Part shown: piece after piece, positions 11,510 to 64,000 of the stretch
Numbering within the stretch: position 1 is the stretch's first letter
How the letters are laid out: each line of letters opens with the position of its first letter
NCBI RefSeq assembly: GCF_000275865.1
Contig: NZ_CM001555.1
Span: forward strand, 434,001-498,000
Direction: 5' to 3'
From: Methanofollis liminatans DSM 4140
GTDB taxonomy: Archaea > Halobacteriota > Methanomicrobia > Methanomicrobiales > Methanofollaceae
Length of the DNA stretch: 64,000 nt
Position numbers and translations under genes: made by a program
Notes under the pieces: generated by a model
Told to the model about the DNA's origin: nothing
The model's input: only the letters and a program-made list of their open reading frames with translations
Databases searched by the model: none

Positions 11510-14500
11510 ATGGATAATCCTATCAAAACTATACTCCTGGTCGGCTTCGTCCTCCTCACCCTTGCTGCGGCCGCATCGGGTCTCCCCACCATCAGCGTCA
11601 CCAACAATACAGAATGGTTGACCGCGGGCGGGGGCGAGACCGCGACGGTGACGGTGGCGGTGGACGGAAGCGTGGAGGGTGCGCACATTATTCTCTCGTC
11701 CAGTGACCCGGAGATGGGCTCGATTGTGCCGGGAACGCTGCCCGGGACAGGTGGAACGGCGACCTTTAAGGCCGGGACAAAGAGCGGGGACGTGACGATC
11801 ACGGCGAACTATGCTGCCCAGAACGGCACGGTGATCGCGGCAGGCAACGTTACGCTGAAGATCGATCATGGGGTGCCGCATAGCATCTCATCTCTGGATT
11901 ATGCCGATGAAGTGACGGCCGGGTCGACGACGTCTCTTATCCTCAGGATGGCGGACCGGTGGAATAACTCGATCGAGAGCAGGCGCACTGTAGAGACCGT
12001 TCACTTTGTGGTCGGCTCCCCCGGTGACGCTGCGCGGCTCATCTACGGCTCGAATGTCTCGACGGATCTTCGGGTCCCGGTCGATGCAAATGGCGACGTC
12101 CGGGTGGATCTCAGGACTGCCCCCCTTTCGGGCGCCAATATTGTGATGGTCGAGTGTCCGGGGACCATAGCAACCGGGTATATCACCGTCACCGGCACCG
12201 CAACGGGGGTGCCGTGGGAGATGTACCAGACTGTCACGCCGGACGACGATCCCCATCCCTACCAGCAGGCCGACGGGAAAAAGGTGTTCTCTATCGTGTA
12301 CTCCCTGTACGACCGGCATGGCAACGTGGCCGGCAACCGCCAGATCCACGTTCAGATCGTCCCGCGGGAAGGATACCTGAAGGCCGTTGAAAAAACTGTC
12401 CGGACGAACGAGGAGGGCAAGGCGATGATCTCCTACGGGCCGTCCGACGTCGCCGGGATCGCCGATATCGAGGCTTATGCGGTTGACAACGAAAGTCTCA
12501 CCTGTTCCAAGCAGCTGGAGTTCGTCAGCACCGATCCGACCACCATGCTCCTCTCGGCCTCACCGCAGACAGTGGCGAGCCGCGACGTCAAGAGCGACAT
12601 CAGTGCCCTGATCCGGGCGAAGGTGGTCGATGTCAAGGGCAACCCGGTGGCGGACGAGAGCGTCAGTTTCACGATCACCGCCGTGCAGAACGGGACTTTC
12701 GTAATGACGCAGAACCCGGCGATCACGAATGGCAGCCGGACCGCGGAACGCGGCGGCACCCCGATCGTCGCCTCCACCGACAACACCGGTTTTGCGACGG
12801 TGGACTTCCTCCCGGGTGCCTTCACGACCGATATCTCGAACTTGCGCTACAGCAACCTCTCGGTGGGGAACGCGACGGTCAGGGCATCGTGGAAGGATCA
12901 GACGAGGGATATCACGGTCTCGTTCAGGAACTACCCCTATCTCAGCGTGAAGACCCGGGTCGAGCCCCCGACGGTGGCGGTGAACGACATGGTGAACGTG
13001 ACCGTGCAGCTGATCGGCGACGGTTATGCGCTCCACTCCCGCCCGATCGATGTGGTGCTTGTGATCGACCGCTCCGGGAGTATGGACAAACTGGATAGTT
13101 CTGGAAAGAAACGCATAGTGAGTGCGAAGGATGCTGCCTACACCTTCATCGGTCAGATGGATCCGTCACGCGATCGGGTTGGTCTTGTGTCCTTTTCTTC
13201 GACCACGACCCGAGATTGTAATCTGACCGATAACTTTGCGTTGGTGAATACCAGTGTGAAATCCCTCGTAGCGACTGGTGCCACTCAACTGCGGCGCGCC
13301 ATCTATGAGGCGGTTAAAATGCAGCAGGAGGGGGGGCGGGCCGATGCCGTCAAGGCGGTGATCGTCATGACCGACGGCGACTGGAACTATCATGGCAGCC
13401 CCCTCGGGCACGGTACAGGATACCCTGCGAGCGCGTCATGGGTCTACACGTTCAGCGGCAGCAATCTGGAGCCCAATAACTACCGGTATTATGATGGGCT
13501 TGGCGGGACGCTCTTGGAGGGGAAAAAAGACGGAAAATCATATTATTACTGCACCGACGGCGAATCAACCAACCAGAACATGTCCCGGTTCGCCCTCTCC
13601 AGTGGCGTAAAACTTTATGCAGTTACCTTCGCCTACAATCCCGACAGCACGGTCAGGGCTACGATGAATACTCTCTCTACCTCGACCGGCGGATTTTACG
13701 AGCACGCCCCCGATGGAAATAAGCTTGCCGAGATCTACACCGACATCGCCCTCAAACTCCAGGAGGCGGCAGGCGTCAACACCACGATGTCCCTCGTCTT
13801 CAAGAATGTTGAGGTGAACAACGTCTCGGGCTATTCGGACGTCTTCGAGTACCAGCCCATCAGCGGTGCGTCCACCTTCGTCACCAAGTACTGGCAGACG
13901 AACCTGACGACCGTCCCGGACAAGGATCACACGTACCCCTATTCATTTGATCAGACAGCCGACTGGGCCGACGACGAGATCTCTTTCGACGTCGGCGACA
14001 TCTACCTCAACCAGGCATGGGAGACGACCTTCTGCCTGAATATCACCGAGGAGGGGAACATCGACATCTTCGGCTCGAACTCGATCATCAGGTTCAACGG
14101 CACTGAGGGCCAGAGCAAACTCCGCCTCCCCAGGACGCTCGTGACCGCCGTGAAGGACCTGAACGTCACCGCACTGGACCAGGGCGTGGTCAACGTCACC
14201 ATCGTCAGTGCAACATGGGACGGCGTCACCTTCCTTGTCCCGACATGGGAACTGGGGTATTCGGGCAACAAATCGATAGTACAGAACGTCTACTACCAGT
14301 ATAGCCCTGACAACCTCTGGTGGGACGGCGTCTGGAACCACTTCGACACGATCCGGTGCGGTCCTGCAGCGGTCAACGGCACCTACACATCGAACCTTCT
14401 GGTGGAGGGCGTCACCGGGTGGTATAAAGTCCGGGTGCACGCCCAGGAAGATGTACAGGGCGGTGCGAGCGGACTGGACACCTGGACTCAGCCGATCCGT

Positions 14501-53932: not shown

Positions 53933-55066
53933 ATGTTCGATCCTGTATCTCTTGCCCGCTGCCGCTCGTACGACCCTGACGAAGTGGGATCTGCTCTCTC
54001 TGCGGTGCTGGCGCCCCTCGGCGGCATGGCGGCGTTCGTAGAACCGGGTATGCGTGTCCTGGTGAAGCCCAACCTCCTCTCGGCCCGGCCCCCTGAGAGG
54101 GCGGTGACGACCCACCCGGCGGTGGTGCGGGCGGTGGTCGAGGCGGTGCAGGCGTGCGGGGGCGTCCCGGTGATCGGCGATTCGCCCGGTGGGCAGAACA
54201 CCCCATCCTCGTACGACGCCCTCCTCCGGACGACCGGGATGATGGGGGTGATCGAGGAGACGGGCTGCGAGTACGTGTACTTTGACGACGAGAGCGTCGC
54301 CGTCCCGTCTCCTGACGGCCTTGTCTTCCGCGGGTTCACGATCGCACGGGCGGTAGCAGACGCCGACGCCGTGATCTGCCTGCCCAAACTGAAGACCCAC
54401 CAGCTCACCGCATACTCCGGTGCGGTGAAAATTCTGTACGGCTGTATTCCCGGCATCACGAAGGCGGCCTACCACCTCCACGCCGGGCAGGATCGGGAGG
54501 TCTTCGCCGACCTCCTCCTCGACCTCCACGCCGCCATCCCGCCGTCGCTCTCTGTCATGGATGCCGTCGTCGGCATGGAGGGGAAGGGGCCGCAGAGCGG
54601 CAATCCCCGTCAGATCGGGCTGATTGCCGCCTCAGCGAGCTGCACCGCCCTGGACTACGCGGCGGCCCTTGCCGTCGGCCTCGACCCCCTCTCGGTCCCG
54701 ACGATCGCCCGCGCCGCCGCGCGGGGAGAGGGGCCGGCGGCTCCTGGCGATCTCCGGGTTCACGGCCCGCCCATTGCGGAGGTGCGGGTGGCGGACTTTG
54801 TCCCGGCCCCGGCGTCGCCGCCCTCTCTGCCGTCGTTTGTCACGCAGTTTGGCGGACGGCTCGTCGCCGCGCGCCCGCTCGTCGACGCCGGACGGTGCAC
54901 GGCCTGCGGCACCTGCGCCGCCGTCTGCCCGCCGCATGCGATCACGTTCGTGCCGGGCGAGATCCCGCAGATCGATGAAGAGGCGTGCATCAGGTGTTTC
55001 TGCTGCCAGGAACTCTGCCCGCAGGGGGCCGTTGAGATTGTCCGGCCCTCTGTCAGGGAGTATTAA
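53933..55066 (+). CDS. DUF362 protein with two [4Fe-4S] ferredoxin motifs
   Basis: 377-residue cytoplasmic iron-sulfur protein. The DUF362 domain (residues about 20-290) shows VLVKPNLLSARPPERAVTTH, VICLPKLKTHQLTAYSGAVK and the nearby GAVKILYGCIPG. The C-terminal ferredoxin domain has CTACGTCAAVCPP and CIRCFCCQELCPQ clusters for two [4Fe-4S] centres. Three in-frame ATGs precede the core; the one at 53933 is favoured by GAGGG six bases upstream. Function is unknown. Such proteins are common in methanogens and may take part in electron transfer or cofactor chemistry. The 3' end overlaps the convergent propeller gene by four bases. Confidence 0.85.
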   Translation: MFDPVSLARCRSYDPDEVGSALSAVLAPLGGMAAFVEPGMRVLVKPNLLSARPPERAVTTHPAVVRAVVEAVQACGGVPVIGDSPGGQNTPSSYDALLRTTGMMGVIEETGCEYVYFDDESVAVPSPDGLVFRGFTIARAVADADAVICLPKLKTHQLTAYSGAVKILYGCIPGITKAAYHLHAGQDREVFADLLLDLHAAIPPSLSVMDAVVGMEGKGPQSGNPRQIGLIAASASCTALDYAAALAVGLDPLSVPTIARAAARGEGPAAPGDLRVHGPPIAEVRVADFVPAPASPPSLPSFVTQFGGRLVAARPLVDAGRCTACGTCAAVCPPHAITFVPGEIPQIDEEACIRCFCCQELCPQGAVEIVRPSVREY

Positions 55067-56106
55067 CCCCGCCGTCTCGCGCAGAGGAGCGCCGTCACGG
55101 CTGCAAGGAGGGGGGCCGCTGCCTCTGTCGGGGTCGGCGTTTCGTCTTCCTGTCTCTGCGGGGTGGTGGTAGAGGCTTCGGCCACCCTCTCATCTTCGGC
55201 TGGTGTCCGGGGTAAGGGACGGTACAGGGCGACCGTTCTCCCTGAACCGGCCATTACGGGGCCTTCGCTGCCGACTGCAAGGGATGTGACCGCGCCTGCC
55301 GGTATGGAGCCGATCTCAGTGCCGTTCGTTGAGAAGAGTTTGATTTCTTCCCCGCCGAGAGCGACGAAGGAACCGTCTGCCGCGATCACGACGGCAGGCC
55401 TCCGCTCTCCGCCGACCTGCCTCCAGAGGGCCCTGCCGTTCCCGTTGAGGAGTTCTGCAACGCCGTGGTCGGCACCGACGGCGATATATCCGCCGTCGTC
55501 GGTCATCGAGCAGGAAAGCGTGGCGCTTCCGGTGGCATAACTCCAGAGGGGTCTCCCCTCGCCGGTGTAATACCTGATCGTGCCGTCTTTTTCGCCGGTG
55601 GCAATACGCCCGCCGTCGAGGGAGAGGGAAAGGGCGATGACGTCCTCAGTCGTATTGACGACTGCCGACTGTTCATACCCCCCGGTGCCGTTTTTCCTGA
55701 AGATCATCAACCGGGTGTTGTCAAACCCCCCGGCGATGCAGGAACCGTCAGGGGATATGGCGGTGCCGAAGGCGAAAAAGCCGGTATCATGCCTGAACGC
55801 CAGGGCGCCGCTCCGGTCATAGAGGCGCAGGTCCTCTCCGCCGGTCACGATGAGCGAACCGTCGCCGGAGATCCCGACCGTCTGCGCGTGGCGGCCCGGC
55901 ACCTCCCAGAGAGGCGTGCCGTCGGCATCCAGGCAGGAGAGGGCGGCGGCGGTGAGCACGACGACCGTCTCGCCGTCATCCGATACGGCGATATCGAGCA
56001 CGTTTTCCGGCGTCGTGGTCTCCCATGCACGGTCGAAGGAGAGTCCGGCCGCCGTCCCCGCAATGCTCAGGGCGAGGATGAGTGCGACGGCGACGCCTGC
56101 TCTCAT
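55063..56106 (-). CDS. Secreted beta-propeller (WD40/PQQ-like) protein, last gene of the DUF4430 operon
   Basis: 347-residue exported protein. A signal peptide (MRAGVAVALILALSIAGTAA) precedes about seven repeats with the pattern D-G-x-x-[IV]-[AV]-x-G then L-[WFY], as in SGDGSLIVTGGEDLRLYDRS, SPDGSCIAGGFDNTRLMIFR and TDDGGYIAVGADHGVAELLN. The seven-ish blades imply a propeller. A Thr/Pro/Glu linker and a short hydrophobic C-terminus (APLLAAVTALLCARRRG) may anchor it. Its ATG overlaps the stop of the toroid-BtuF gene by four bases, so it is translationally coupled to the cobalamin-type operon. The ligand is not known; it may cooperate with the BtuF-type protein. Confidence 0.78.
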   Translation of the reverse strand: MRAGVAVALILALSIAGTAAGLSFDRAWETTTPENVLDIAVSDDGETVVVLTAAALSCLDADGTPLWEVPGRHAQTVGISGDGSLIVTGGEDLRLYDRSGALAFRHDTGFFAFGTAISPDGSCIAGGFDNTRLMIFRKNGTGGYEQSAVVNTTEDVIALSLSLDGGRIATGEKDGTIRYYTGEGRPLWSYATGSATLSCSMTDDGGYIAVGADHGVAELLNGNGRALWRQVGGERRPAVVIAADGSFVALGGEEIKLFSTNGTEIGSIPAGAVTSLAVGSEGPVMAGSGRTVALYRPLPRTPAEDERVAEASTTTPQRQEDETPTPTEAAAPLLAAVTALLCARRRG

Positions 56107-58079
56107 CCCACCCTCCGCAGGAGGATCAGCCCGGCGGCGGCGAGTGCGATCGATGCGGCGAACGCCCCGAAACCGGGCGACTGTGGTGCAGTGGTGGCCG
56201 GTGCCGGTCCGCCCTCGAAGAGGTCGGGGTGGATGGCGGCTGCGACCTCTTCCAGGGCGTCGACCAGGCGCGGCCCGCCCCGGTCGATCAGGTCTGAGTC
56301 GACGATGTAGACGCGGTTGTTTTTGATCGCGTTCAGGCTTTTAAACCTGGATTCGTCCATGAAATAGCGGTAGATGAGGTCGGTGCCGCCCTCGCCCATC
56401 CCGGTCCCCGAGTTGACAATGATCACCTCGGGGTCGGTGGTGATGAACCGCTCCATCGTGATGATCTGCCAGCCCTCCACATCGGAAAAGGCGTTTGTGC
56501 CCCCGGCGAGGGCGATCATCTCGTTCTGGAAGGTGTCCCTCCCGCTGACCCAGATGGGATCGTACCAGACAGCGTGGACGACCGTCGGGGTTTCGGCCGC
56601 GATCTGTGTCTTCTCCTTCACGGCGTCGATGCGCGCCTCCATCGATGCCACCAGCCGCTCCGCCTCAGCTCCGGTGCCGGTGGCCGTTCCGACGAGCCTG
56701 ATATCGCGGAGCGTTCCCCCGGCCGAGTCCGGGTTCAGGGCGATCACGGTCAGGCCGAGACTCCTGAGGTGGTCCACGACCTCCTCGGTGTTTCCGAAGG
56801 CGGCCACCACCAGGTCAGGCTTCGCCGTCACCACGCGCTCGATGTTCACGGTGGAATACCCGCCGACCTTCGGTTTCGCCGTCGCCTCCTCAGGGTAGTT
56901 GCAGTAGTCGGTCACGCCGATCACCCGGTCGCCGAGGCCGAGGCCGAAGAGGATCTCGGTGTTCGCAGGGGCGAGAGAGACGATGCGCATCGGCATCGCC
57001 TCGATCCTGACCGCAACGCCGTAGTCGTCGGTGACGGTGACGGGCTGCCATTCGGCGGTTGCGGCGGTGGGTGCTGCGGTCTGCGGCACCGTCGTCGTCC
57101 CGGGCGCCGCTGCCGCGGGTGTCTCCGGTGCCGAGAGGTGGGGCGCCTTCTGGCCCGGCAGGACCGGGTAGGGTTTCCCGAGCAGGGCCGGGACCGCCCG
57201 CGCCGTCATGCCGCAGGGGTTGTCTGTCGTGTATGCCGTCCACCTGAACGAACCGTCGGGCTGCTGGAGGTCTGCAAGGGTCGAGACCACATCCCTGCCG
57301 TTCTTCGACCACGCCGAGGGGTCCTCCCCGGCGGCGGCGATCGCCTGGATCACCCATGCCGCCGAGGCGGCGTTCGAGGAGGATGAGCCGCCGTAGTTGA
57401 AGCCGCCGTCGTCCATCTGGTGCGCCCTGAGGTAGTCGAGCGCCCGTGAGACGGCGGGTGCGTCTATCCGTTCGCCGGCGGCGATAAGGGCCATGATCAC
57501 GGCGGCGGTGTCGTCGGAATCGCTCTCGGCGCCCGGCATCCAGCCGTAGCCGCCGTCGTCGTTCTGCTGGATCTTCAGCCATGCGGCAGGTTTCGAGGCG
57601 TCTTCACCGGCAGAGACGAGGCCGAAGACCCCCCAGTAGGTGGTGTAGACGAAGTCGCCGAACTGGCCGTCGGATTTCATGCGCCCTTTGAGTTCGACGA
57701 GGTAATCGCGGCCGCCAAAGGTGCGCGGGTCCTCCCCGGCCGCCGCGATCAGGGTGACCATCTTGCCGAGTTCGGCTGTCCCCTCCGGGTTTACGGCGTC
57801 TTCGGCCGATTTCCAGTAGTCGATCGCCGAGGTGCCGTTCACCTTCCAGTCGTGCGGGTCTTCGCCGGCGGCGACGATCGCCATCACCGCGAACCACGAG
57901 GTGCCGGGGTTGGTGCTCCGCCCGGCTTCGGCGAACCCGCCGTCGTCGTGCTGGCAGGACCTGATGTAGTCGAGGCCGTTCTGCACGGCCGCATCGTCAG
58001 CACCGCAGGGATAGGCCGCCGCCGTCGCGATGCAGGCGGCGATGCAGAGAAGAAAAAGAAGTGGGGCAATCGGTTTCAG
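56103..58079 (-). CDS. Alpha/alpha-toroid fused to BtuF-like corrinoid-binding protein, with PGF-CTERM
   Basis: 658-residue predicted surface receptor. Residues 1-31 encode a signal peptide (LKPIAPLLFLLCIAACIA, then TAAAYP). Residues about 32-305 contain prenyltransferase/squalene-oxidase-type repeats with Q-x-D-D-G-G-[FY] motifs (QHDDGGF, QNDDGGY, HQMDDGGF), which form the alpha-toroid used by transcobalamin and intrinsic factor. After a Thr/Ala/Pro linker, residues about 360-620 are a periplasmic-binding-protein domain of BtuF type (PMRIVSLAPANTEILFGLGL, VIGVTDYCNYPEEATAKPKV). The end is SPGFGAFAASIALAAAGLIL plus Arg-Arg, a PGF-CTERM signal. The start is probably CTG at 58079 (AGGAGG nine bases upstream); a GTG at 57986 would lose the signal peptide. 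Confidence 0.78.
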   Translation of the reverse strand: MKPIAPLLFLLCIAACIATAAAYPCGADDAAVQNGLDYIRSCQHDDGGFAEAGRSTNPGTSWFAVMAIVAAGEDPHDWKVNGTSAIDYWKSAEDAVNPEGTAELGKMVTLIAAAGEDPRTFGGRDYLVELKGRMKSDGQFGDFVYTTYWGVFGLVSAGEDASKPAAWLKIQQNDDGGYGWMPGAESDSDDTAAVIMALIAAGERIDAPAVSRALDYLRAHQMDDGGFNYGGSSSSNAASAAWVIQAIAAAGEDPSAWSKNGRDVVSTLADLQQPDGSFRWTAYTTDNPCGMTARAVPALLGKPYPVLPGQKAPHLSAPETPAAAAPGTTTVPQTAAPTAATAEWQPVTVTDDYGVAVRIEAMPMRIVSLAPANTEILFGLGLGDRVIGVTDYCNYPEEATAKPKVGGYSTVNIERVVTAKPDLVVAAFGNTEEVVDHLRSLGLTVIALNPDSAGGTLRDIRLVGTATGTGAEAERLVASMEARIDAVKEKTQIAAETPTVVHAVWYDPIWVSGRDTFQNEMIALAGGTNAFSDVEGWQIITMERFITTDPEVIIVNSGTGMGEGGTDLIYRYFMDESRFKSLNAIKNNRVYIVDSDLIDRGGPRLVDALEEVAAAIHPDLFEGGPAPATTAPQSPGFGAFAASIALAAAGLILLRRVG

Positions 58080-58082
58080 GAT

Positions 58083-59660
58083 TTATCCCTCCTTTCTTCT
58101 GTTCAGGCAGATCCCGCCGCCGATCAGGGCGCCGGCGATCGCCGCCGCCCACCCGAGGGGCGCCTGGGCAGGGGCCGTCGTTGACGGCGATATCCCTGTC
58201 GCGGCGGTCGTCGGCATGGGCGTCGTGCTCGCACTCCGGGCAGCATCGCCAAGGCTGACCATGGCGAATATCGAGAGCCCGTTCGGCGATAGGGCCTCGA
58301 AGATCAGGTTGCCCTTCTCGTCGATCCCGACCATGCCGGTCTCCAGGATCTCGACCGTTCCGTCGTCGGCGATGTGCACGATGCGTACCGCACCGGCGCC
58401 GCCGTGCGCTTCCACCCATGCCGGGCTGATCGTCATCCTGACGGTGGCGCTTGCGATGTCCTCCTCGTTTACAAGCCCGTTCATGCCGACATTCATCACG
58501 CAGGCGGTGCAGGTGACGGTGGCCCTCTCAGGGGCGCAGAGTGCAAAGATGGCCGATCGTTCTTCTGTTGAAAGGTCGGGGGCGTAGGTGACGGTGATGT
58601 CGCCGAGAGCCGGGATGCCGTTGAGCGAAAGGTCAAGCGTACCGCCGACCTCGCCGATCCCGCTGATCGCTCCTGGTATCGGCGTCAGTCTGGCCGTGAC
58701 GCTCCTGATAAATCCGGTGGCGATGCCGTCCCTCTCGGTGATGTCCCCGGTCATGACGGTCAGGAGCAGTCCCGGCCGTTCGATGATGATGCGGTCCCCC
58801 TTCACGGTGACCCGCTCCCCATCGTGTGCGGCGTTCAGGTTGACCGATATCCTGGTCTTTCCGCCCACCACCGCGGTGGTGACGCCTTCGGGCAGTCCAA
58901 CCGGGATCGTTGCCGCCGTGGCCGGGCCGAAGGCGTTCGCATAGTCCGCTGTCGTGTCCGCATCGCCGCTGTCGCTGCCGCTCCCATAGACCACCTTCAG
59001 CCAGATCGCATTGTCCGAGGTCGCCGGGGTGGAGGACATGCTCTCGCTCCAGTAGAAGACGACCCGGTCGCCGTTCTGCACGGTCTTTACATTCGCCCCG
59101 ACAGAGGGGGAGACGCCGTTGACCTGATACATCCAGCCTGATGCGCCTTCATTCGTCCGGCCGTTGATGGCGGTGATGTAGAGGGTGCCGTACTGGTCGT
59201 ACCAGCCGTCGTCGACGGTGTAACTCACTCCCGAGGCGTCGAGGGCGCCGAGGGCGGTGCGGCGATTCACCGTATAGGTCGTGCCGCTGTTCGCGGCGGT
59301 GACGGTGACGTTGCCCGCCGGGAGGACGACGTCCTGGTAGGTCTCGTCTTCGCCGCCGTCACCACCGTTGCCGCCGCTGCCGCCCGCTGAGATGGCGACG
59401 GATTCGGCCACCGTTGCACCCCCTGCGGTCGCTGCAATCGAGAGCGCACCGGTCGTGTGCGGGACGTACCTGACGGTCGTGCCCTGTGCGAAGACCGGGG
59501 TGCCGCTGTTCTCCTGGAAGACGAAGAACGCTTCCTGGTCGCAGGTGACGATCACCGGGGAGCCGGCGGTGTTTCCCGAGACGTCCATGCTCAGGGCCGC
59601 GGCCGGCATGGTGCAGGCGGCCGCGCAGAGCAGGCAGAGCAGTGTCAGGAAACGATGCAT
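58083..59660 (-). CDS. Secreted DUF4430 (transcobalamin beta-like) domain protein
   Basis: 525-residue exported protein. The signal peptide is MHRFLTLLCLLCAAACTMPA. After a beta domain and a Gly-rich linker, residues about 109-207 form a DUF4430 domain: TVNRRTALGALDASGVSYTV then GWMYQVNGVSPSVGANVKTV and NGDRVVFYWSES. This is the domain related to the C-terminal part of transcobalamin. Residues about 230-490 are further beta structure with a CTACVMNVG segment. A C-terminal helix (LGWAAAIAGALIGGGICLNR) is a membrane anchor or a CTERM-type signal without the PGF triplet. The gene overlaps its upstream neighbour and is four bases ahead of the toroid-BtuF gene. Confidence 0.8.
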   Translation of the reverse strand: MHRFLTLLCLLCAAACTMPAAALSMDVSGNTAGSPVIVTCDQEAFFVFQENSGTPVFAQGTTVRYVPHTTGALSIAATAGGATVAESVAISAGGSGGNGGDGGEDETYQDVVLPAGNVTVTAANSGTTYTVNRRTALGALDASGVSYTVDDGWYDQYGTLYITAINGRTNEGASGWMYQVNGVSPSVGANVKTVQNGDRVVFYWSESMSSTPATSDNAIWLKVVYGSGSDSGDADTTADYANAFGPATAATIPVGLPEGVTTAVVGGKTRISVNLNAAHDGERVTVKGDRIIIERPGLLLTVMTGDITERDGIATGFIRSVTARLTPIPGAISGIGEVGGTLDLSLNGIPALGDITVTYAPDLSTEERSAIFALCAPERATVTCTACVMNVGMNGLVNEEDIASATVRMTISPAWVEAHGGAGAVRIVHIADDGTVEILETGMVGIDEKGNLIFEALSPNGLSIFAMVSLGDAARSASTTPMPTTAATGISPSTTAPAQAPLGWAAAIAGALIGGGICLNRRKEG

Positions 59661-61969
59661 TCCGAGCCTCCGCTGTGGGAGATCAGGCCGGCCGGGTAGT
59701 CGTCGAGGGGGTAGATCCCGGCATACAGCGTGTAGGTACCCGCGCCCACCTGGGCGGGGACGGCGACCAGCACCGGCACGGTAACGGTCTCGCCGCCGCT
59801 CAGGCGGACCGTGCCGGTCCCGGCGATCCCCTCGCCGGCGGCGTTTGTGCCGCTCACGACGACGACGTACCAGCCGTCATTCTCTGCGGCGGCGTCCACC
59901 TCTGCGAGGACGAAGCCGCCGCGCTGCCCGCCGTCGAGCGATGGTGCCTCAACCGCCGCTTCGGCGACGTCGACGTCGATCGATACCACGTAGGCTGCCT
60001 GGTCGATGAGGGGCGCCCAGGTTACCGGGTCGGTGGGGCAGTAGTAGAAGGTGAGTTCGTCGCCGTCTGCGAGGTCGTTTGCGCCGAGTCCTGCCGGTGC
60101 CGCCGCCCCGTTGATGAAGATCGACCATGCGCGTGCGTTCTCCTGCGTCCAGTCCTCGTTTGCGATGCCGTCGATATCCTCCAGGTAGAACGAGCCGTAG
60201 GCGGCATACCAGGAGTCCGAGGCGTTGAAGGCGAACCCTCCGGCCGTTGCGGCGGCGTCAAGGGCGCCGAGGTCGGTGGTGCGGTTTATCTGGTACGAGG
60301 CGGATGCGTTGTTCGATGGGGTGAAGGCGAACGTGGTGTCGGTGAGGGCGACGGTGCCGTCCCAGATCATGGTCGCCGTGGCGACGTCGACGTCGATCGT
60401 GACGATATAGTCGGCCTCCTCGATGAGGGGCGCCCAGGTTACCGGGTCGGTGGGGCAGTAGTAGAAGGTGAGTTCGTAACTGTCCTGGAGGTCGTTTGCC
60501 CCGAGCCCTGCCGGTGCTGCCGCCCCGTTGATGAAGATCGACCATGCGCGTGCGTTCTCCTGCGTCCAGTCCTCGTTTGCGATGCCGTCGATATCCTCCA
60601 GGTAGAACGAGCCGTAGGCGGCATACCAGGAGTCAGAGGCGTTGAAGGCGAACCCTCCGGCCGTTGCGGCGGCGTCAAGGGCGCCGAGGTCGGTGGTGCG
60701 GTTTATCTGGTACGAGGCGGATGCGTTGTTCGAGGGCACGAAGGTGAAGGTGGTGTCGGCGAGGGCGACGGTGCCGTCCCAGATCACGGTGGCGCCCGGC
60801 GTTTCTGTACCGAAGGCATAGAGCTGGTTGTTCTCGGCGCCGATGTAGAGCACGCCGTCAGATACGGCCGGAGAAGAGGCATAGAAGGCGGCAAAAGTGC
60901 CGTCGCCCGGGTCGGGGAGGGCGTACGACCATACCGCGGCCCCGGTGGATGTGTCCACCGCATACACCGTGCCGGTCTTCTCGTTCGTTCCGAAATACGC
61001 GACGTCACCGGCAATCACCGGCGAGACGTCCACCCGCGCACTCGGGAACGTCCAGAGCGGGGCGCCGGTGGAGGCATTGTAGGCGTGGAGGCCGTTGGCC
61101 GATCCTGCGATGAGGGTGCCGCCCGAAACGGCCGGGGTCGAGGCTGTCCCGGTCTGGGAGGTGTTCCAGGCCTCTGCACCGGTGGCCGCATCGAGGGCGT
61201 AGATGTGGTCTGCTGTCGTCACGTAGACCTTCCCGTCGCCGACGACCGGCGTCGATTTCACGGCGGCCGCGAAGGTGGCGTTCCATGCCGCGGCGTGGGT
61301 CGAGGCATTGATGCAGAAGAGGCTGCTCCCGTTCCCGGCGACAAAGATCATTCCTTCTGCGGCTGCCGGCGAGGTGAAGTAGCCGACGGCTCCACCGGTG
61401 GGGAAGGACCATGAATCGTTGCCTTCGGGCGTGAACGCATGCAGCACGCCATCTCCGGCGGAGAGGGCGTACACCATTCCGTCATAGACGAGGGGTGAGG
61501 AAGAGAGCCCGAAGTAGGCTGTCGTGTCGATCTGGTCGCTCGACCAGAGGGTGGCGCCGCTGAAGGCGTCGACGGCGTAGAGCCGTCCGTCGGTCCCGCC
61601 GAGATAGACCTTCCCGTCGGCGACGGCGACGCCCGAGACCGATCCTGTGGCGGCGCCGCCGAGTTCGTTCGTCCAGAGGATTTCCCCGGTCGAGGCGTTG
61701 CAGCAGACAAGTCCGGCGGGATCGTTGTCGGTGAAGTTCATATCTGGCCATGTCGGGATGTAGACCAGTCCGTTATGGACGGCGGATGCGCCGTCAGGGA
61801 ACTCGTCGATCTCTGTCGACCAGAGGAGCGTGTCGTTCAGGGGTCCGGGTGACGATGCCGCCCCGGTGCGCGCCGCATCGGCGTGGAACATCGGGTAGTC
61901 GGCCGCCACAGGTGCGGCGATGCAGATCAGAAGGATGCAGAGTAGCCCTGCCCTGGTAAAGTGGTGCAT
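59645..61969 (-). CDS. PQQ-like beta-propeller with two DUF4430 domains, first gene of the corrinoid operon
   Basis: 774-residue secreted protein. Signal peptide MHHFTRAGLLCILLICIAAP is followed by a PQQ-type beta-propeller (about residues 30-390), with repeats such as VADGKVYLGGTDGRLYAVDA, VGDGKVYVTTADHIYALDAA and VSDGVLYIGAENNQLYAFGT. Two nearly identical DUF4430 domains follow (about 393-531 and 532-670), each with YQINRTTDLGALDAAATAGG and AWSIFINGAAAPAGLGANDL. A final beta domain ends in ECIVS, with no membrane anchor. Start ATG with AAGGAG upstream; it is divergent from btuC. The 3' end overlaps the next gene by 16 bases. Role in ligand capture is inferred. Confidence 0.82.
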   Translation of the reverse strand: MHHFTRAGLLCILLICIAAPVAADYPMFHADAARTGAASSPGPLNDTLLWSTEIDEFPDGASAVHNGLVYIPTWPDMNFTDNDPAGLVCCNASTGEILWTNELGGAATGSVSGVAVADGKVYLGGTDGRLYAVDAFSGATLWSSDQIDTTAYFGLSSSPLVYDGMVYALSAGDGVLHAFTPEGNDSWSFPTGGAVGYFTSPAAAEGMIFVAGNGSSLFCINASTHAAAWNATFAAAVKSTPVVGDGKVYVTTADHIYALDAATGAEAWNTSQTGTASTPAVSGGTLIAGSANGLHAYNASTGAPLWTFPSARVDVSPVIAGDVAYFGTNEKTGTVYAVDTSTGAAVWSYALPDPGDGTFAAFYASSPAVSDGVLYIGAENNQLYAFGTETPGATVIWDGTVALADTTFTFVPSNNASASYQINRTTDLGALDAAATAGGFAFNASDSWYAAYGSFYLEDIDGIANEDWTQENARAWSIFINGAAAPAGLGANDLQDSYELTFYYCPTDPVTWAPLIEEADYIVTIDVDVATATMIWDGTVALTDTTFAFTPSNNASASYQINRTTDLGALDAAATAGGFAFNASDSWYAAYGSFYLEDIDGIANEDWTQENARAWSIFINGAAAPAGLGANDLADGDELTFYYCPTDPVTWAPLIDQAAYVVSIDVDVAEAAVEAPSLDGGQRGGFVLAEVDAAAENDGWYVVVVSGTNAAGEGIAGTGTVRLSGGETVTVPVLVAVPAQVGAGTYTLYAGIYPLDDYPAGLISHSGGSECIVS
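60005..60421 (-). repeat. DUF4430 tandem repeat, copy 2 of the protein (DNA copy 1)
   Basis: 417-bp unit inside the propeller-DUF4430 gene. It is nearly identical at DNA level to the next unit over most of its length, with differences clustered at its edges and a few inside (for example TCGCCGTCTGCGAGG here versus TAACTGTCCTGGAGG in the other copy). The 139-codon period preserves the frame. Confidence 0.85.
60422..60808 (-). repeat. DUF4430 tandem repeat, copy 1 of the protein (DNA copy 2)
   Basis: Second unit, matching the preceding one base for base over long stretches. Such low divergence suggests a recent duplication or gene conversion. Confidence 0.85.
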
Positions 61970-62004
61970 ATAACATCAATCTCCTTTCGTTATAGTGTTG
62001 AAAT

Positions 62005-62045
62005 TTGATCAAGTGATCTGATCATAAGATCAAATAAATTGATCA
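62005..62045. promoter_or_regulatory. Cluster of TGATCA palindromes in the divergent corrinoid-locus control region
   Basis: Three TGATCA-centred palindromes lie within 41 bases: TTGATCAA (62005-62012), TGATCA (62019-62024) and TTGATCAC (62039-62046). An inverted repeat TGATCT/AGATCA (62014-62019 and 62027-62032) overlaps the middle one. A TATA-like TTTATTTG on the minus strand lies at about 62032-62039. The palindromes overlap the promoter of the minus-strand operon, as an operator would. The spacing of centres, 13 and 21 bases, is close to one and two helical turns. Confidence 0.55.
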
Positions 62046-62171
62046 CCTCCGCGAGCGGCCTATATGGCGATCAGGAGATTCAGGATCCCCTTTATTCTCG
62101 CCTCTCCCTTCTTACCCCTACAATTCTTCTGTTCCTCTGCCTCTTTCGCCCGTTCTGTCACCATTTTAAGA

Positions 62172-62209
62172 AAGTTTATTTGTGTTAAGATAAAAAATAT
62201 TGATTGCTT
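62172..62209 (+). promoter_or_regulatory. btuC promoter (near-leaderless)
   Basis: A TATA box GTTTATTTG (62174-62182) predicts transcription start near 62204, only a few bases before the ATG at 62210. The transcript is therefore probably leaderless, which excludes a long riboswitch in front of btuC. No cobalamin-riboswitch-like sequence is seen in 61970-62209. Confidence 0.5.
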
Positions 62210-63157
62210 ATGCACGTACGCCGATGGATTACGCCGGTTTTTCTTGGCATTTTTCTCCTTCTGAGCATCGTGCTCTCGACGGCCATCGGAGCAAGCGGTC
62301 TTTCCCTTCTTGACCTCGACCCGGACACGGTTCGCATGCTCCTCTTCGACGTCCGCCTGCCGCGGGTGCTCGCCGCCCTTCTGGTTGGTGCCGGCCTCGC
62401 CGTCGCCGGTGCGGCGATGCAGGGGCTCTTCAAGAACGCGATGGCCGACCCCTACATCATCGGCACCTCCTCGGGCGGGGCGCTCGGGGCCTCCCTCTCG
62501 ATCGTCTTCCTCATGGGGTTCGGCCTACCTGTCTTCGCCTTCGTCGGCGCCACTGCATCCACCATGCTCGTCTACCTCATCTCACGGCGCAAGGGGCGGG
62601 TGACGGTCGAGACCCTGCTCCTCTCGGGTATCGCCGTCTCGATGTTCCTCTCGGCCGTCCTCTCCTTCATCATGTACATCTCCGGCAACAGCCTCCACCA
62701 GATCATGTTCTGGCTGATGGGGGGGTTCTGGAACGTCTCGTGGAGCGACGTCTGGACCGGCCTCCTCCTCCTGCCCGCCTGCCTGGTCCTCTTTCTCTGT
62801 GCGCGCGACCTCAACGTGATCTCCATCGGCGAGGAGGATGCCCTGCACCTCGGCGTGGACGTGGAGAAACTCAAACTCGGTCTCCTTCTCATTTCTTCCT
62901 TCATCACCGGCATCGCCGTCTCGGTGGCCGGTTCGATCGGGTTTATCGGGCTGATCGTCCCCCACCTGATGCGCATCCTCGTGGGGCCCGACCACCGCAT
63001 CCTCATCCCCTCGGCGATGATGGCAGGCGCCGCCCTCCTGGTGTGGGCCGACACCCTGGTCCGCATCCTCCCGACCGAGATCCCGGTGGGCATCGTCACG
63101 TCGTTCTTTGGCGCACCGTTTTTCATCTACCTTCTCAGGAGCAGGACGTGCACATGA
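62210..63157 (+). CDS. btuC: FecCD/BtuC family ABC transporter permease
   Basis: 315-residue permease with about ten hydrophobic helices. It carries the signature RLPRVLAALLVGAGLAVAGA near residues 49-68, and the coupling/loop segment GSIGFIGLIVPHLMRILVGP around 242-261, both diagnostic of BtuC/FhuB/FecCD. The start at ATG 62210 is preferred to a TTG at 62204. The stop overlaps the ATPase start by four bases (ATGA). The divergent operon encodes a BtuF-like protein, so the likely cargo is a corrinoid, though family members also carry iron chelates. Confidence 0.9.
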   Translation: MHVRRWITPVFLGIFLLLSIVLSTAIGASGLSLLDLDPDTVRMLLFDVRLPRVLAALLVGAGLAVAGAAMQGLFKNAMADPYIIGTSSGGALGASLSIVFLMGFGLPVFAFVGATASTMLVYLISRRKGRVTVETLLLSGIAVSMFLSAVLSFIMYISGNSLHQIMFWLMGGFWNVSWSDVWTGLLLLPACLVLFLCARDLNVISIGEEDALHLGVDVEKLKLGLLLISSFITGIAVSVAGSIGFIGLIVPHLMRILVGPDHRILIPSAMMAGAALLVWADTLVRILPTEIPVGIVTSFFGAPFFIYLLRSRTCT

Positions 63158-64000
63158 CAGGGATTATGGTCAGGACAGAGGGTCTGGACGTCTCCTATGG
63201 CGACACCCGCGTGCTCGAGGCGGTCTCGCTCGCAGTACAGGAAGGCTCATTCATCGGCATCCTCGGGCCGAACGGCTGCGGAAAGACCACGCTCCTGCGT
63301 GCGCTCTCACGGATCATCGAGCCTGCAGCCGGGACGGTGATGGTCGACGGCAGGGAGATCGGCGAGTATTCGATCAGGGGCCTTGCCACTATCATGGGCG
63401 CCGTTCCGCAGGAGACCGCCGTCACCTTCGACTTCACCGTCGAGGAGATCGTGCAGATGGGCCGCCACCCCCACCTCGGCCGCCTCTCCTCGATGGGCGA
63501 GGAGGACTACGCCATCTGCCGGCATGCGATGGAGATCACCAACACCGCGTACCTTGCCGACCGCCTGATCACCGAGATCAGCGGCGGCGAGCGGCAGCGG
63601 GTGCTGATCGCCCGCGCCCTTGCCCAGAGGCCGCGGGTGCTCCTCCTCGACGAACCGACCTCGCACCTGGATATCAGCCACCAGATCGAGATCCTCTCGA
63701 TCATCAGGGGGCTCGTCCCGCAGGTGACGGTGATCGGCGTCTTCCACGACATCAACCTTGCCGCCTACTTCTGCGATACCATCATCCTGATGGAGCAGGC
63801 GCGTATCGCCGCCGTCGGGACGCCTGCGGCGGTGATCACCGACCGGAACATCAGGGAGGTCTTTGGTGTGGAGATGATCGTCCGCACCCATCCCATCACC
63901 GGGCGCCCCTATGTGGTGCCGCGCTATGAGCCGGGCCCGGTCGTAGAGCGTCCCCTCCGGGTGCACGTGGTCTGCGGCGGGGGCACCGGGGCTGAGACCC
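63154..64000 (+). CDS. btuD: ABC transporter ATP-binding protein, BtuD/FecE-like (3' end outside the window)
   Basis: At least 282 residues are visible. Walker A is GILGPNGCGKTTLLRALSRI (residues 35-54), the ABC signature is TEISGGERQRVLIARALAQR (near 145), and Walker B is RVLLLDEPTSHLD. The H-loop His lies in VFHDINLAAYFCD. After the ATPase the frame continues (GPVVERPLRVHVVCGGGTGA), the start of a C-terminal extension seen on some methanogen cobalamin ATPases, running off the window. The start overlaps btuC (ATGA). Confidence 0.92.
   Translation, partial: MTGIMVRTEGLDVSYGDTRVLEAVSLAVQEGSFIGILGPNGCGKTTLLRALSRIIEPAAGTVMVDGREIGEYSIRGLATIMGAVPQETAVTFDFTVEEIVQMGRHPHLGRLSSMGEEDYAICRHAMEITNTAYLADRLITEISGGERQRVLIARALAQRPRVLLLDEPTSHLDISHQIEILSIIRGLVPQVTVIGVFHDINLAAYFCDTIILMEQARIAAVGTPAAVITDRNIREVFGVEMIVRTHPITGRPYVVPRYEPGPVVERPLRVHVVCGGGTGAET

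Follow-up and report, generated by a model that had tools for sequence, protein, structure and literature searches.

The window analysed here is a stretch of 64,000 nucleotides from Methanofollis liminatans DSM 4140 (assembly GCF_000275865.1, contig NZ_CM001555.1, positions 434,001-498,000 of the forward strand), and all coordinates refer to it. Towards its end, four tightly spaced genes span positions 55063-61969 of the minus strand, and genes for the BtuC permease and the BtuD ATPase of an ATP-binding cassette (ABC) importer face the opposite way (Table 1). The four genes encode exported proteins, namely two beta-propeller proteins, a DUF4430 protein and a protein that joins an alpha/alpha toroid to a BtuF-type binding domain. 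The locus is probably best explained as a conserved surface cassette for scavenging corrinoids (cobamides) in Methanomicrobiales.

Pfam and NCBIfam searches and the open reading frames agree with the original prediction, made from the sequence of the window alone, as to the four-gene operon, its exported products and the divergent btuC and btuD genes. The three DUF4430 domains it had counted, two in the 774-aa propeller protein and one in the 525-aa protein, are also the only copies in the genome (Pfam search of the 2.475-Mb single contig). In the order of transcription, the first two genes overlap by 16 bp, 3 bp separate the second from the third, and the third and fourth share 4 bp. The gene of the 347-aa propeller is the conserved last gene. 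As listed, the toroid-BtuF gene comprises positions 56103-57986(-) and begins at its first GTG. The frame upstream of this codon encodes a signal peptide, and the start is probably a CTG at 58079; the closest relative likewise has CTG at this codon and another relative TTG.

Table 1. Features of the locus and of its immediate surroundings (window coordinates).
Feature	Position	Strand	Evidence
WD40/PQQ-like beta-propeller, 347 aa, N-terminal signal-like segment, hydrophobic tail	55063..56106	-	Pfam PQQ_2 3e-10, WD40 3e-9
Signal peptide, alpha/alpha toroid, BtuF-type binding domain, PGF-CTERM-like tail (probable start)	56103..58079	-	Pfam, NCBIfam, PDB phmmer, AlphaFold, relatives
BtuF-type domain of toroid-BtuF protein	about 56220-57047	-	
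Toroid of toroid-BtuF protein	57159-58010	-	
DUF4430 protein, exported, 525 aa, PGF-pre-PGF region, C-terminal hydrophobic tail	58083..59660	-	Pfam DUF4430 7e-16; NCBIfam TIGR04213 below cutoff
DUF4430 of 525-aa protein	about 59004-59342	-	
PQQ-type beta-propeller with two DUF4430, exported, 774 aa	59645..61969	-	Pfam PQQ_2 6e-51, DUF4430 1.4e-14; genome Pfam search
DUF4430 cores of 774-aa propeller protein	60041-60202 and 60458-60619	-	
Divergent promoter region, A+T-rich, three TGATCA palindromes	61970..62203	.	
btuC, FecCD-family permease	62204..63157	+	FecCD 6e-92; BtuC NCBIfam models best, below cutoff
btuD, ATPase, runs past window to 64419	63154..64000	+	NF007082 362 bits, cutoff 537
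CbiR-like gene, outside window, overlaps btuD end	64416-65144 (window-equivalent)		NF041277 E=2.7e-18, below cutoff

To estimate how widely the cluster is preserved, 150 genomes of the same order were sampled. DUF4430 is present in 57 of them and the toroid-BtuF fusion, full or partial, in about 46. The fusion and a strong DUF4430 match occur together in 41 genomes, with 3 and 5 discordant ones (Fisher p about 1e-27, uncorrected for phylogeny). The neighbourhood survey called for by the original prediction gave the same picture: among 20 regions chosen by DUF4430 only, 19 contain the toroid-BtuF gene, 18 contain btuC and btuD as well, and a CbiR-like gene is found in 12. The cluster is conserved far beyond chance. 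A scan of neighbouring genes detected no further gene recurring across divergent loci, only lineage-specific synteny.

The toroid-BtuF protein matches SQHop_cyclase_C (2e-12) and Prenyltrans (7e-11) of Pfam in its toroid and Peripla_BP_2 (5e-40) in its binding domain. Both domains are confident in the AlphaFold model, whose mean predicted local distance difference test score (pLDDT) is 83.5, and the toroid consists of paired helices with pLDDT mostly above 85-90. The two domains reside on one chain as originally predicted. The PGF-CTERM tail assigned to the same protein scores 18.3 bits on TIGR04126, below the cutoff of 24.5; it does display a PGF motif, a hydrophobic stretch and a basic end. 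With this model of the protein as query, the best Foldseek matches are periplasmic binding proteins, among them BtuF but also binders of heme and siderophores, and no toroid protein occurs in the top 50.

Comparison of NCBIfam models places the BtuF half closest to vitamin-B12 binders: the BtuF model scores 116 bits, heme IsdE 58 and Fe-dicitrate 41, and the only model above BtuF is a substrate-neutral one for PGF-CTERM-anchored binding proteins (164 bits). A phmmer search against PDB sequences places BtuF chains, at E 1e-26 to 1e-23, ahead of named heme and siderophore binders. Across 25 homologues, five residues of this half never vary: Trp487, Trp514, Glu520, Arg577 and Arg581. Aromatic as well as acidic positions align with E. 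coli BtuF, the invariant tryptophans with aromatic positions of that protein in the PDB phmmer alignment. The position near E. coli BtuF W66 is occupied by F, Y, L, V or H. The invariant Glu520 aligns with an E. coli BtuF position which we take to be a BtuC-docking residue.

The importer genes rank in the same manner. For btuC, two BtuC models come first (332 and 247 bits; cutoffs 461 and 334), followed by models for F420-0 (238) and FecC (200), and BtuD, too, has a corrinoid ABC ATPase model on top; neither protein reaches the equivalog cutoffs. Other FecCD systems of the genome (L115-L117) have weaker BtuF-like proteins. Further, in 7 of 15 bacterial BtuF loci scanned (L018, L022, L027, L028, L030, L035, L037), a cobalamin riboswitch lies upstream of the homologous BtuF gene, and btuC follows in each. 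This is evidence at the level of the family: at the Rfam gathering threshold no cobalamin riboswitch was detected in the window, nor is there one in the Chloroflexi loci L026, L029, L033 and L042, which encode toroid-DUF4430 proteins. Linkage to iron uptake, which the original prediction had named as speaking against a corrinoid, was not encountered, no such gene being recognised among the window neighbours or the genes recurring in 17 loci (a scope short of full annotation). At its C-terminus BtuD is longer by about 150 aa, an extension common to archaeal and many clostridial BtuD proteins.

The CbiR-like protein encoded immediately behind btuD is an AP_endonuc_2 barrel (PF01261, E=9e-23), in whose clade H57, H98, E136, D165, H168, H188, D191 and E225 are invariant. 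Members of this clade (E<1e-57) are encoded within about 10 kb of a BtuF gene in 53 of 65 genomes; most of the remaining 12 have the pair on different contigs. In the regions chosen by DUF4430, the CbiR-like gene either follows btuD or is placed at the operon's far end. Because of this linked gene, the ranking of BtuF, BtuC and BtuD models and the riboswitches preceding bacterial homologues, corrinoids are the best-supported ligand class, as had been proposed. A second CbiR-like paralogue, about 40% identical and not linked to BtuF in this genome, is found at L114:4847-5509; most genomes of the order have copies similar to it.

We then asked how the exported parts relate to transcobalamin. The 525-aa protein alone has no meaningful direct sequence match in the PDB; when a profile of 26 DUF4430 domains of the studied loci was used, transcobalamin-2 ranked first among all PDB chains (E=0.024). 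In the window, DUF4430 and toroid belong to two separate proteins. In Geoglobus (L010, L011), the orthologue of the 525-aa protein, which exceeds the TIGR04213 (PGF-pre-PGF) cutoff, is fused with the toroid in one gene, and BtuF is separate. Two Chloroflexi loci (L029, L033) likewise encode toroid and DUF4430 in one protein, in transcobalamin order and beside a double CbiO-like ATPase and, as seen for L033, CbiQ and the S component of an energy-coupling factor (ECF) transporter. The analogy to transcobalamin is drawn because of these fusions. With the L033 fusion model as query, the Foldseek alignments to transcobalamin and haptocorrin extend for 396-432 columns, longer than with the toroid alone, at E about 1e-6 to 1e-5; terpene cyclases are retrieved at similar E-values. 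In the AlphaFold model of the fusion the toroid is excellent and the DUF4430 part poor, probably owing to a mixed alignment. Profile, fusions and the Foldseek match together support homology of both parts to transcobalamin modules, and their assembly into a split clamp may be envisaged by analogy. A genome from a different family of the order encodes, at L112:7612-10983, a stand-alone protein of six DUF4430 domains with neither an importer nor a toroid in its vicinity.

A parallel between the propellers and BtuG, suggested by the original prediction, had to be abandoned. PDB sequence searches return only generic PQQ, BamB and WD40 propellers and designed ones, and no BtuG chain is among the matches of either propeller at E<0.001.

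Several known systems resemble the cassette in part. Animal transcobalamin, intrinsic factor and haptocorrin likewise combine an alpha/alpha toroid with a DUF4430 (transcobalamin-like beta-grasp) domain. In the window, however, these domains are split over two proteins, the toroid is fused to BtuF, there are additional DUF4430 copies as well as propellers, and an ABC importer would take over delivery instead of endocytosis. The BtuCDF importer of vitamin B12 shares the binding domain, BtuC and BtuD, but the binding protein described here has an N-terminal toroid and a tail resembling a surface anchor, and its BtuD is extended. With Bacteroides BtuG/BtuH the cassette has in common the general idea of extra surface proteins catching B12 ahead of import; in contrast, the archaeon is not expected to possess an outer membrane or BtuB. 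CbiR, a phosphodiesterase that remodels cobamides (Mok et al. 2020, PMC7733943), is likewise an AP_endonuc_2 TIM barrel linked to corrinoid transport genes, and its model is the best NCBIfam match of the archaeal protein; the archaeal clade is a candidate, lying below the equivalog cutoff and comprising one linked and one unlinked paralogue.

A further precedent is the SLBB superfamily. Burroughs et al. 2007 (PMC1796856) defined this superfamily and reported its fusions to toroids and propellers, paired extracellular SLBB proteins, operons with CbiO/CbiQ and archaeal members. Exported toroid and SLBB proteins in transporter operons are shared with those bacterial surface proteins. The window differs in its BtuCD-type instead of ECF importer, the fusion of toroid and BtuF, the linked CbiR-like gene and archaeal PGF-CTERM-like tails, a combination that is not described in the sections of that paper considered here. 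The original claim that no archaeal system with such parts had been described therefore stands in part: no description of the present system was found in the literature searched, which mostly excluded subscription journals, whereas SLBB proteins of archaea have been known since that report, which also covers fusions to propellers and operons with paired SLBB genes. The cassette would join surface capture of the transcobalamin type to import by BtuCD, its clamp being split and the toroid of that clamp fused to BtuF.

From these computed features we infer a possible route of uptake. The four exported proteins would be situated on or near the cell surface, possibly anchored there, where a split transcobalamin-like clamp would catch a corrinoid, one of its halves being the DUF4430 domain of the 525-aa protein and the other the toroid that is joined to BtuF. 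The clamp would pass it to the BtuF domain on the toroid's own chain, which would dock on BtuCD for import. Inside the cell, opening of the nucleotide loop by the CbiR-like enzyme may allow the corrinoid to be rebuilt into the cell's own cobamide and to serve, for example, the Mtr methyltransferase encoded next door. The chances are about even that the system as a whole is a surface-assembled archaeal transcobalamin of this split type, with a two-component clamp, same-chain hand-over to BtuF and coupling to import and CbiR-type remodelling.

A number of observations weigh against this interpretation and are considered here together with the alternatives that they favour. It is conceivable, though rather unlikely, that BtuF and the importer carry corrinoids while toroid, DUF4430 domains and propellers serve as scaffolding or adhesion holding the binding protein at the surface, with no clamp. 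The generic folds matched by the propellers would suit such a role, as would the number of DUF4430 copies, which varies from one to five per locus against an always single toroid, the existence of a six-DUF4430 protein without importer and a toroid closer in sequence to terpene cyclases than to transcobalamin. The clamp is further called into question by the weak sequence similarity of DUF4430 to transcobalamin and by the fusion model, whose DUF4430 part has a pLDDT of about 30-45 and whose match has a large root-mean-square deviation, meaning that inter-domain geometry is not predicted. Scaffolding does not readily account, however, for the physical fusion of toroid and DUF4430 in Geoglobus and Chloroflexi, the extended alignment of the Chloroflexi fusion to transcobalamin or the near-perfect co-occurrence of toroid-BtuF with DUF4430. 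It seems extremely unlikely that the toroid is instead an enzyme like the terpene cyclases, working on a lipid outside the cytoplasm and fused to BtuF only incidentally. Its profile does match terpene cyclases and prenyltransferases, its best sequence relatives are squalene-hopene cyclases, and the DXDDT motif is largely kept (D164 and D166 in 30/30 aligned members, D167 in 28/30). Some members nevertheless have another residue in place of the last aspartate of DXDD (N in L104 and L042, S in L026). The toroid is also exported, and it is joined to BtuF or to DUF4430 next to importers of the ABC or ECF type. Since the DXD of this class II terpene cyclase motif is invariant, an ancestral or residual enzymatic role of the toroid is conceivable.

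As for the ligand, it is very unlikely to be heme, an iron chelate or another metal-tetrapyrrole. Importers of heme and siderophores do belong to the FecCD/Peripla_BP_2 family, Foldseek searches with the BtuF half also return heme and siderophore binders, RhuT and other heme binders being near the top of the list, and the single best PDB match of this half, 4m7o, is labelled as possibly iron-binding. On the other hand, all three importer parts place B12 models above those for heme and iron, and the bacterial riboswitches, the linked CbiR-like gene and the lack of any recurring non-core gene in divergent loci, or recognised iron-uptake gene near the window locus, point in the same direction. 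The assignment of that CbiR-like protein is itself weakened by its 66.4 bits on NF041277, against an equivalog cutoff of 105 (relatives 45-71), and by the 44 bits that a paralogue unlinked to BtuF attains on the CbiR model. For archaeal SLBB proteins, Burroughs et al. 2007 (PMC1796856) suggested that, as these archaea often make B12, the ligand might be a different metabolite, B12 scavenging being proposed for bacteria. This we regard as quite improbable for the present locus, even though the genome encodes CbiC, because of which the organism probably makes its own cobamides. The locus is linked to a B12-type BtuCD and to a CbiR-like gene, and the latter would help even a cobamide producer to remodel what it imports. 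These links, together with the gain that salvage and remodelling can still bring to producers, speak for corrinoid as the archaeal ligand as well.

Three features near the locus may be added. The TGATCA palindromes (62006, 62019, 62040) lie within 40 bp of one another in the divergent promoter region; they were considered as a conserved operator and rejected, since the repeat is missing from same-genus loci, and their function is unproven. Genes resembling DUF39-type homocysteine biosynthesis, assigned by eye, occur near the locus in Chloroflexi as well as in several Methanomicrobiales (L033:8310-9515; also L008, L009, L106, L109 and L111). Beyond the CbiR-like gene, convergent mtrH and two mtrA genes are found. 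MtrA is the corrinoid subunit of the methanogenic methyltransferase; of the two paralogues (L004:12510-13250 and 13463-14194, window-equivalent about 66510-68194), one has an MtrG-like C-terminus and the other a weak MtrF-like one.

These archaea depend on the corrinoid protein MtrA for methanogenesis, yet competition of methanogens for external cobamides is little described. About one third of the genomes sampled from the order have a conserved cassette for capture and import, often accompanied by a candidate remodelling enzyme, from which it seems that cobamide producers, too, scavenge and remodel corrinoids. The proposed corrinoid-scavenging cassette further provides a testable function for archaeal DUF4430 proteins, left open in 2007, and may offer an evolutionary comparison for human B12 carriers.

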